A stretch of 64,000 nucleotides of DNA from Byssochlamys sp. IMV 00236 (taxonomy: Eukaryota > Ascomycota > Eurotiomycetes > Eurotiales > Thermoascaceae). The stretch spans positions 274,734 through 338,733 of the forward strand of contig MSJH02000792.1 in NCBI GenBank assembly GCA_001931875.2, read 5' to 3'. Shown piece after piece: positions 25,101-29,789 of the stretch; the stretch's first letter is position 1; every line of letters begins with the position of its first letter. Both the position numbers and the translations under genes were made by a program. Below the pieces are notes generated by a model. The model was not told the origin of the DNA. It saw only the letters and a list, made by a program, of their open reading frames with translations, and ran no database searches.

Positions 25101-26733
25101 TTATGTCGCTTTCTTTCGAGCTATCCAGCGAGAAGGTCTGTACAGGTTCTGCAGCATACTGCGCGGGTCTTGGATGTAGCCACATTCACGCTGCCCTTCC
25201 CTCAGAGCACGCTCCTCCACGTGGAATCCCATCCGCTCCACAAGTAGCATGACTTCTTCGTCGGTCAGCTCGACACTTCCAGGCTCTCCAATCCCGTCAT
25301 TCTGATGAGTATTCGCGCCAGTCTCCTCATTACTCTTGCCACCTCGGGTGCTGCTGCTCTCAAAGTGCCATAACAGAGGGCCTACGTTGATCCAGATTCC
25401 ACCGGGCTTGAGACAGTTTCGGATGACTTCGATATACCGGATCAGATTTGGCGCAGTATCGATGAAGAACACAGTGGCAACCGCATCGAAAGCGTCCTTT
25501 TGTGACTCGCCTCGGTATAGAACCACAAAGTCCGCGGCAGACATGCTCATCGTCCCGAAATTTCCTTCTGCGTTACCCTCTGCTTGCTCCTGCTGAGCTG
25601 CAAGCATCGCAGACATGGGATGTACGTCTGGTATCATGACCTTTCGTAACTGTTGCGTCCTTGACTCTAGGTTGGAGAATTGTGTGGCAAAAGGATAGAG
25701 GACATGCTCTCCGGGCCCACGGGAGTGATTGAGTACCCAGCTGCTGGCTATCAGCTGGTGGTACGAGATCTCATTACCTTCCGCTGCAAATCCAGCCTGG
25801 CAGAGATCGAAAACGAGCCTACCCAGTCCAGCCCCAGGAACCAACACTTTCACTTCTGACCGGGACCCCTTCCTTTGCCCGAATTCCTTATCTAAAGCTT
25901 TGATAACGGGGTCGTAACAGACCTCTCGCTCGGCCTTGCCTTCTGCACTCCAGTCCCTGTAGAACTGTCTAATAGTCGAGTGAGCCTTGCTCACATCGGA
26001 CGATGTAGCCGTTCCCTGCCAATTGCGGGTCGGATCATCCTCTTCGGGGTTCGCTGATAGTCCGAACGACTCCAGGCCAGTCTTGAGTATGGCGTCAGCA
26101 AGTTCCGCATTCGCATCAATGGCATCATCCACTTTGTTGAAGTTATCCAGAAGATTGAAAGGCGCTTCCGCTAGCATCTGCCAGTGCGAGGATGGGAGTG
26201 CGTAGAACGCCTGTCGTCGGCGGTGAGTGGTGTTCATGTGAGCTGTCCTTCGGTATTGCCTATTCATTGCTTAGTGGATGTAAAGAATGCAAAATGAAAT
26301 TATGGATCTCTGAGTGATTTGATCTCATAATGGAAGTTTGTAACCCCATGACCACATTAACAAGACCAACAAGGCAAAAGGGTATGAAGAGCATCAATTC
26401 TGAGCACACAATATAACGAACGCATATTCATTGGGAGACAAGAAATACATTAAACGACAAGCTTCGATATTAAGGTCAATAAAGATTAACAAGCAATAAA
26501 GCAGAATATATCAAGGTCACGGTATCAAACACAGGATAGACAGATTCTGGTCTACCCCCTCTGGGTACATAGGCCCATACACATCTGGAAACATAAATAA
26601 AAGATACGTACCTGAAAGAGTCAAGAGTAGAAAAGAGCACTCGACGCTCCTCCGGATCAGCAAAGGGATCAAAGTCCCCTGCCCAACTCTGGACTTCTTC
26701 TGGCTCATCGTGATGATGGGCGTGCGGGTCCAT
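25101..26733 (-). CDS. carnosine N-methyltransferase-like protein (CARNMT1/N2227 family)
   Basis: Model: complement(join(25101..26259,26612..26733)), 426 aa. The family are S-adenosylmethionine-dependent methyltransferases; the animal enzyme methylates carnosine at histidine to make anserine, and the yeast relative is Yil110w/Hpm1-adjacent in annotation but the fungal substrate is not established. The first exon gives MDPHAHHHDEPEEVQSWAGD and ends LFSTLDSF, joining to RQYRRTAHMNTTHRRRQAFY, a strongly conserved N-terminal block. The SAM-binding motif is KVLVPGAGLGRLVFDLC, followed by GNEISYHQL, the PDVHPM motif, FFIDTAPNLIRYIEVIRN and CLKPGGIWINVGPLLWHFE. The intron is 352 nt, several times longer than most in this window. 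It is divergent from the proteasome chaperone-like gene. Confidence 0.9.
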
Positions 26734-28151: not shown

Positions 28152-28829
28152 ATCTGGGACAGGTTCTTAGCAAAAAAGAAGATGAGGACGAAGACACTAC
28201 TTTGCGAGGACAGTTTGCTGTGCTCCTAAGTTGTTGATGACTTGATGAGCGTATTCTGTTTAACCCTTGGATTGACCGCAGTTTTAATAACTTAGGATTC
28301 TCCTCTGATTGTGTAATCCACCAGTTGATGCGGCTTCGTGAAGCCGTTCTTCAGATATAATCAAACATGCCTGTCTACCGCTATCTAGATCCCCTGTACA
28401 GGAATATATATATATATATATATATATATATTCTTGTTACCTACGGGGCAAGATATATGTTGGCCTCAAACGAGCAGGGTTGATGAGAAGAATTTGCAAT
28501 CATCTGCTCGGGGTAATGACCATTCTATTTCAAAATGTGTCACCAGGTCGGTGGGCCTTTATCTAATCATGGACGTCTGTTTTAGTTAATGTGCGTCGCC
28601 AACAGACCTAAAACTGTACGTTTTGATCTTTCGTATTGGAAAATTGCAAAAGAATGGCTTGATATTATCGGAGAATCCAAAAAACATAGGAATTCGATTT
28701 GAACCCTCAAAGTGAGGGAAATGCCTAGCCTCTGAGATATACAAGTACGTGTAGTGAAATGACGAACTCTTTTATAATAGCACAAACGTGGTATAAAATG
28801 TCAAAAAGGGAGATTTTATGTATCACATC
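28152..28829. other. intergenic upstream of the tRNA pair
   Basis: Contains the 3' UTR of the PAC4-like gene and an (AT)n microsatellite listed separately. No gene is supported. Confidence 0.5.
28404..28431. repeat. (AT)14 microsatellite
   Basis: An uninterrupted run of about fourteen AT dinucleotides. Confidence 0.9.
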
Positions 28830-28955
28830 GCCCGGATGGTCTAGTGGTATGTTACAAATGGCACCCTCGCAGCCAATCATCATTGCTAATTCAAATTCAG
28901 GTATGATTCTCCGTTTGGGTCGGAGAGGTCCCGCGTTCAAATCGCGGTTCGGGCC
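28830..28955 (+). tRNA. tRNA-Pro(UGG), copy 1, interrupted in the D-loop
   Basis: Exons 28830..28846 and 28901..28955 join to a 72-nt tRNA. The acceptor stem pairs GCCCGGA with TTCGGGC and the discriminator base is C. The D-arm reads GTCT, loop AGTGGTA; the anticodon stem CTCCG/CGGAG encloses TTTGGGT with anticodon TGG at 28916-28918; the T-arm CCGCG/CGCGG encloses TTCAAAT. An A box (TGGTCTAGTGG) and B box (GCGTTCAAATC) are present, and a T7 terminator follows. The body aligns with yeast tRNA-Pro(UGG), including TGGTCTAGTGGTATGATTCT. Unlike yeast, there is no intron after position 37; instead a 54-nt insert splits the D-loop between G18 and G19. Without removal the D-arm could not fold normally. 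Confidence 0.88.
28847..28900 (+). other. GT...AG insert in the D-loop of tRNA-Pro copy 1
   Basis: The 54-nt insert starts GTATGTTACAAATGG and ends GCTAATTCAAATTCAG. These look like a fungal 5' splice site, a CTAAT branch site and a CAG acceptor. Its first five bases (GTATG) equal the first five of the downstream exon, so the exact junction can slide by up to five positions to the right or one to the left. Confidence 0.75.
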
Positions 28956-28966
28956 TTACCTTATTC

Positions 28967-28973
28967 TTTTTTT
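28967..28973 (+). terminator. RNA polymerase III T-run, copy 1
   Basis: A run of seven T begins 12 nt after the discriminator base; more T follow after CC. It fits a polymerase III terminator. Confidence 0.7.
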
Positions 28974-29043
28974 CCTTTTTTTCTTATTGAGCTGTCATTA
29001 TATTTTCTTAGAGCATCTCCGAAGAGAGTTCTATTACAGCATC

Positions 29044-29178
29044 GCCCGGATGGTCTAGTGGTAAGTTACCAAATATCTATATGTCACACTAGTCTTTGTC
29101 TGTCTCTAACATTCTCTCCTCAGGTATGATTCTCCGTTTGGGTCGGAGAGGTCCCGCGTTCGAATCGCGGTTCGGGCC
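29044..29178 (+). tRNA. tRNA-Pro(UGG), copy 2, interrupted in the D-loop
   Basis: Exons 29044..29060 and 29124..29178 join to the same 72-nt tRNA-Pro, with anticodon TGG at 29139-29141. It differs from copy 1 at only one base, position 57 in the T-loop (G here, A in copy 1), so the T-loop TTCGAAT is the more usual form. All stems pair as in copy 1. A 63-nt insert breaks the D-loop at the same place. The copies start 214 nt apart in the same direction and share a CATC just before the first base and a TTC(A)TTCTTTT-type 3' flank, so they look like an old tandem duplication. Confidence 0.9.
29061..29123 (+). other. GT...AG insert in the D-loop of tRNA-Pro copy 2
   Basis: The 63-nt insert starts GTAAGTTACCAAAT and ends CTCTAACATTCTCTCCTCAG, an excellent fungal spliceosomal donor, CTAAC branch site, pyrimidine tract and acceptor. 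The first dozen bases resemble those of the copy 1 insert, but the interior has diverged and the length differs by 9 nt. Confidence 0.78.
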
Positions 29179-29789
29179 TATGCTTCATTCTTTTTTTTTC
29201 TTCTCTTTTAATTTGATTCCTCACCTTGACTTTCCAAGTTATTTATTACCATGTCAAGGTGGATTCAATTGATTCATTAATTGAACCATCGGGCAGGCGT
29301 GATGTCGTCCTGTGTGGTGGGACATGAGTCTCGACAAATGAGTCGATAGGAATCCTTTTTTCTTTGGACTGAAGATCTTCATGACACCAAGTGAAGATGA
29401 GAGAACTAACTACTAAGGTGGTAGCTACTGTTTGGCGTATCGAGAGATGGTATCGAGTAATATCTCATTCTCATTGTTGTTTTACTCTTTGTATAGGAAA
29501 GCAGTAACTCTTTAAATACTCATCACTACTTGGGACTCTCGTACCATTTTCATAATTGAAGTATCGCCATAAGCAAAGAGAGGGAGAAGGCTAACGAGCC
29601 CATGCTACGGAGAAAATTGAAGTATTTTTTTTACCAGTACTCTTTTATATTATCAGAATCCGCCATAGAGGGTGAGGCCCTCATCATGAAAGCGACATTG
29701 GAAGAAGGAAAAGAAAGAAGCAGATTTCACATCAATAGTAATACAAAGAGTATTAAACCTTCCATGTATGATATCCATCCATTCGTCCA
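29179..29789. other. intergenic, tRNA pair / Ysh1 3' end
   Basis: Holds the copy 2 terminator and the probable Ysh1 3' UTR. A frame at 29602-29955 is antisense overlap and not supported. Confidence 0.45.
29191..29199 (+). terminator. RNA polymerase III T-run, copy 2
   Basis: Nine T in a row begin 13 nt after the discriminator base, as expected for a strong polymerase III terminator. Confidence 0.75.

Follow-up and report, generated by a model that had tools for sequence, protein, structure and literature searches.

Introns of tRNAs and introns of mRNAs are taught as two separate systems that are served by different enzymes. Within the U6 RNA of fission yeast, an RNA polymerase III product, an mRNA-type intron is removed by splicing, as described in the available part of PMC10484740, which has Tani and Ohshima (1989/1991) among its references. 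Fungal U3 snoRNA, U2 snRNA and ascomycete rDNA likewise carry mRNA-type introns in non-coding RNA genes, according to the accessible portions of PMC5832005 and PMC2586383. Interruption of the D-arm is described in the available excerpts of PMC4090602 and PMC9602550 for tRNAs of Cyanidioschyzon merolae and of cryptophyte nucleomorphs, with excision of the nucleomorph introns shown by RT-PCR, and PMC4090602 presents nucleomorphs and C. merolae as exceptions to the view that insertions in the D- or T-arm mark pseudogenes. Here we describe two fungal tRNA-Pro(UGG) genes whose D-loops are probably interrupted by U2-type introns, which we predict to be removed by the spliceosome from a likely polymerase III transcript.

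The two genes lie in tandem on the + strand (28830-28955 and 29044-29178) of the window, by which we mean the whole 64,000-nucleotide stretch of DNA that was analysed; it belongs to contig C789 (742 kb), one of 840 in a 47.4-Mb assembly that was searched as well. A protein encoded at 25101-26267 (-) of the window matches a Paecilomyces variotii entry with 100% identity across 99% of its length, which makes this mould, or a very close relative of it, the likely host. In each tRNA gene an insert (54 nt in copy 1, 63 nt in copy 2) separates G18 from G19 of the D-loop (Table 1). The first-pass annotation had claimed that a 17-nt and a 55-nt part make up each tRNA-Pro(UGG), and ARAGORN agreed: the joined exons of either copy form a 72-nt sequence with a full cloverleaf that is called as tRNA-Pro(tgg). 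Its description of the inserts, with GTATGT or GTAAGT at the start, CTAAT or CTAAC inside and CAG at the end, was likewise borne out by coordinates and motifs. When the unjoined sequence was read with introns allowed, ARAGORN called copy 1 a tRNA-SeC(tca) and copy 2 a tRNA-Glu(ctc); without introns it found no tRNA across the whole window, and Rfam gave no match in the window at gathering score and none at E ≤ 1 for the unjoined sequence of 28700-29300.

Table 1. Features of the two split tRNA-Pro(UGG) genes in window coordinates.
Feature	Positions	Strand	Remark
Copy 1 exon 1 (tRNA positions 1-18), 17 nt	28830..28846	+	ARAGORN
Copy 1 A box, TGGTCTAGTGG	28837..28847	+	last base from intron
Copy 1 predicted D-loop intron, 54 nt	28847..28900	+	GTATGT...CAG
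Copy 1 5' splice site	28847..28852	+	GTATGT
Copy 1 branch-point-like motif	28886..28890	+	CTAAT at -15
Copy 1 exon 2 (G19 to discriminator), 55 nt	28901..28955	+	anticodon TGG 28916-28918
Copy 1 B box, GTTCAAATC	28935..28943	+	
T7 run, likely polymerase III terminator of copy 1	28967..28973	+	12 nt behind gene
Copy 2 exon 1, 17 nt	29044..29060	+	ARAGORN
Copy 2 A box	29051..29061	+	last base from intron
Copy 2 predicted D-loop intron, 63 nt	29061..29123	+	GTAAGT...CAG
Copy 2 5' splice site	29061..29066	+	GTAAGT
Copy 2 branch-point-like motif	29106..29110	+	CTAAC at -18
Copy 2 exon 2, 55 nt	29124..29178	+	anticodon TGG 29139-29141
Copy 2 B box, GTTCGAATC	29158..29166	+	
T9 run, likely polymerase III terminator of copy 2	29191..29199	+	13 nt behind gene

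Because exon 2 starts like the insert, the same spliced tRNA results from seven junction shifts in copy 1 and from five in copy 2, and the tRNA alone cannot fix the junction; shift 0 is the sole junction that gives GT...AG in both copies. In copy 1 the insert and exon 2 (28901-28905) both start with GTATG, which resembles a 5-bp target-site duplication, and the insert of copy 2 starts with GTAAG. The GTATG repeat is a possible trace of intron gain.

Both inserts have the form of U2-type GT...AG introns, with a consensus 5' splice site (GTATGT/GTAAGT) and a CAG end. We compared them with nine likely mRNA introns of the window, a putative set hand-picked from reading-frame joins, of which seven are those with CTRAY among 13 candidates with a fixed GTRNGT (the six without CTRAY were dropped) and two were chosen by eye among 22 overlapping rows with a fixed CTRAY. 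These nine introns measure 52-84 nt and end in CAG (7) or TAG (2); their 5' sites are GTAAGT (3), GTATGT (2), GTAGGT, GTACGT, GTACGG and GTATGG (1 each), and their branch motifs are CTAAC (4), CTGAC (4) and CTAAT (1). The lengths of the tRNA inserts fall inside this range, and their CTAAT at -15 and CTAAC at -18 fall inside the -15 to -24 occupied by the branch motifs of the nine. Of the 5,881,790 combinations of start and length that the window offers on both strands at lengths of 45-90, 11 satisfied a strict motif (GTAWGT, CTAAY at -12 to -30 and CAG), both tRNA inserts and some of the likely mRNA introns among them. Multiplying the numbers of shifts by this motif density gives about 1e-10 for a chance match of both inserts, under an assumption of independence that is only partly true, and on this density we rejected a chance origin of the signals. 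The two inserts are not fully independent evidence because their first bases are common to both. It is the 5' splice site that carries most of the evidence for an intron; the branch point is weak evidence when taken alone, since shuffling the two inserts also produced CTRAY in the tested range, with frequencies of 3% and 14%. As to an introner family, which would have many similar intron copies in the genome, insert 2 matched only itself across the assembly at E ≤ 10, in a type of search that overlooked related tRNA halves.

The exons of the two copies are identical at 71 of 72 positions, and the single difference, A/G, falls in the T-loop. When insert was aligned with insert, the score was equalled by 18 of 500 shuffles, and this likeness lies in the first 13/14 nt: once these were taken off (GTATGTTACAAAT versus GTAAGTTACCAAAT), the score was equalled by 302 of 500 shuffles. 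For the flanks the corresponding counts were 77 of 500 upstream and 188 of 500 downstream. The tRNA exons look to be under selection, because they are nearly identical while the inserts past their first 14 nt and the flanks stand at shuffle level. An old duplication likely gave rise to the pair, with inserts of common origin that drifted and a tRNA that was kept; copying of the exons alone between the genes would likewise require selection, in that case keeping the inserts different.

Intact tRNA-Pro(UGG) genes elsewhere, part of the finding by which the first-pass annotation would have judged the two copies pseudogenes, did not appear when the 47.4-Mb assembly was searched with three patterns, which genes in N letters, in gaps or with a double interruption would escape. 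A pattern from anticodon to T-arm (2 mismatches) hit nine places, namely the two genes at 0 mismatches and seven places at 2, five of which are Ala tRNAs and two of which (C183, C815) hold no tRNA in ARAGORN. The second pattern, which spanned D-arm to anticodon with 3 mismatches allowed, hit seven: four Pro(AGG), one Pro(CGG) on C555, copy 1, caught through its exon 2, and a place on C805 in which ARAGORN finds no tRNA. With a 3'-half pattern (3 mismatches), seven places were found, comprising the two genes, four of Pro(AGG) type (C790, C837, C807, C820) and one on C689. Pro(AGG) is thereby represented by at least five genes, including both on C790 and C837; the C837 gene consists of N letters in its 5' half, and one of the C790 genes does so at its 3' end. 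Inserts at 37/38 were present in five of five Pro(AGG) genes (22 nt) and in Pro(CGG) (54 nt; C555:46985) and in neither Pro(UGG) gene, and the D-loop was uninterrupted in the four readable Pro(AGG) genes and in Pro(CGG). A-box sequences followed directly by GTAWGT were found in the two Pro(UGG) genes and at one place on C814 (two overlapping rows), which was rejected as a further D-loop-split tRNA on the finding of no tRNA there by ARAGORN. A BLAST-type search returned the two Pro(UGG) genes only, and we did not rely on it because it missed Pro(AGG) 3' halves that the 3'-half pattern caught. Among the 61 tRNAs listed by a tRNA family search, which scored 63 of 1,741 candidates, there was no Pro tRNA, and further tRNAs with D-loop inserts of this kind may exist. 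Searches for relatives in viral_contigs and genome_contigs, where few or no fungi are expected, gave 0 matches, a result that carries no information on conservation. In a group of small contigs that includes C276, C382 and C383, those of 38,045-38,047 bases carry the same tRNA-Phe, and identical tRNAs recur on several small contigs; a second organism, or duplicates, may be present in the 47.4-Mb assembly.

These data bear on the possibility that both genes are pseudogenes, inactivated by their D-loop insertions, with decoding left to Pro(AGG) and Pro(CGG). By the established decoding rules, CCA should be readable by inosine-bearing Pro(AGG), and CCG is read by Pro(CGG). Since wobble may in this way make Pro(UGG) dispensable, the missing intact gene does not prove function. 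A likely relic of a Pro-type tRNA does exist on C689 (1243-1531): it has kept its tRNA halves with a T-run behind, its anticodon loop is interrupted by 222 nt that start with GTACGT between T33 and the 3' anticodon stem, and ARAGORN reads it as a tRNA-Thr(tgt) with a 219-nt intron. The split genes contrast with this relic, in which no Pro anticodon is readable and the A-box stretch is changed, whereas their joined sequences fold as tRNA-Pro, their promoter boxes and terminators are retained, and splice signals persist in both diverged inserts. According to the available text of PMC4090602, D- or T-arm insertions in eukaryotic tRNA genes affect, in most cases, a single member of a large synonymous set, and such genes are taken as pseudogenes; here, by contrast, both of the two Pro(UGG) genes found are interrupted. 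The near-identity of the exons beside diverged inserts and flanks also argues against decay, and we regard inactivation of both genes as unlikely.

We also considered whether SEN or a similar enzyme would excise a non-canonical D-loop intron, with tRNA ligase joining the halves, as in red algae and nucleomorphs. D-arm introns in C. merolae and the demonstrated excision of non-canonical introns in the Guillardia nucleomorph (available excerpts of PMC4090602 and PMC9602550) offer precedents, and the assembly has tRNAs with 37/38 introns as well as SEN-type genes. The inserts, however, sit at 18/19, and the accessible part of PMC4033280 describes yeast SEN as acting strictly at 37/38. No bulge-helix-bulge with a centre of 3-4 bp and both 2-bp outer helices was found at shifts -1 to +5, in a scan run without a positive control: at the junctions with three or four of four central pairs, neither outer helix reaches 2 bp, and the nearest other case, copy 2 at shift 3, combines two central pairs with an outer helix of 2 bp at either side. 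Two PF01974 matches in the assembly give no sign of an extra endonuclease gene, and GTAWGT, CTAAY and CAG would be left unexplained. With no bulge-helix-bulge at shifts -1 to +5, we rejected the SEN route as very improbable.

The signals for transcription can be compared with what the first-pass annotation proposed, namely intron-like inserts removed either by the spliceosome from a polymerase II precursor or by a non-canonical SEN or other cleavage. Its intron reading and its spliceosomal option fit the data, the non-canonical SEN is poorly supported, and a polymerase II precursor is unneeded, because the A box, the B box, the T4-free bodies and the separate T7 and T9 runs indicate two units for polymerase III. 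Each copy has a complete cloverleaf, both internal promoter boxes and a T run as its likely terminator. The A box is unbroken by the intron because the first base of the insert is G, the last base of the box. The longest T run within the gene bodies is 3, with no T4; T4 is also absent from seven of the nine mRNA introns of the window, and T4-free inserts are weak evidence by themselves. Taken with the boxes and with the T runs behind each gene, the T4-free bodies make transcription by RNA polymerase III likely, in two separate units. That the spliceosome instead acts on an RNA polymerase II read-through transcript would suit the usual coupling of splicing to capping and polymerase II, and it is very improbable in view of the A and B boxes, the T4-free bodies and the T runs right behind each gene, one of them between the copies.

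For spliceosomal removal from a polymerase III precursor, the reading that we prefer, the following course can be proposed. TFIIIC and polymerase III would transcribe each tRNA-Pro(UGG) gene separately; the first intron base doubles as the final A-box base, which would leave the promoter whole despite the interruption. The pre-tRNA would be recognised by the U1 and U2 snRNPs, two transesterifications would join G18 to G19, and RNase P, tRNase Z and modification enzymes would then complete the tRNA. Counting against this course, an uncapped transcript whose first exon measures 17 nt is an unusual substrate for the spliceosome.

If this course is correct, a spliceosome-dependent tRNA would join the mRNA-intron and tRNA-intron systems and would show that splicing can act on an uncapped polymerase III product whose first exon is 17 nt long. 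We give about even chances to the further suggestion that Pro(UGG) can be made by way of the spliceosome only, perhaps throughout the Eurotiales and hidden by annotation, which would tie the reading of proline codons to splicing and link their translation to the state of the splicing machine. With a spliceosome-dependent tRNA, fungal tRNA lists from current tools could also miss real genes or misname them. The accessible part of an Aspergillus niger survey reports 284 tRNA genes, three of which were called selenocysteine tRNA, with ARAGORN as one of four programs (PMC6108506). Since ARAGORN reads copy 1 as tRNA-SeC, these three may be miscalled split Pro(UGG) genes.

Compared with their own isoacceptor family, the Pro(UGG) genes share a similar tRNA body with Pro(AGG) and Pro(CGG), and the 37/38 insert belongs to Pro(AGG) and Pro(CGG) only. 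The D-arm introns of C. merolae differ in being assigned to the splicing endonuclease and a bulge-helix-bulge, and those of nucleomorphs in measuring 3-24 nt; no GT-AG or branch-point signals are described for either in the available excerpts of PMC4090602 and PMC9602550. The U3, U2 and rDNA introns lie in RNAs other than tRNA, and the accessible portions of PMC5832005 and PMC2586383 describe no tRNA case. Among the literature matches listed, a set whose scope leaves out most subscription papers, there was likewise no report of a spliceosomal intron in a tRNA. The U6 gene of the present assembly, found as a single match, is unbroken over 100 nt and, unlike that of fission yeast, has no intron, so that we rejected it as a second intron-bearing polymerase III gene here. 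Fission-yeast U6 is itself a part of the spliceosome, and the origin proposed for its intron is reverse splicing close to the catalytic nucleotides, whereas the host here is a tRNA. That U6 gene already provides a polymerase III RNA with an mRNA-type intron; set against the available parts of these sources, the tRNA as host is what is new here.
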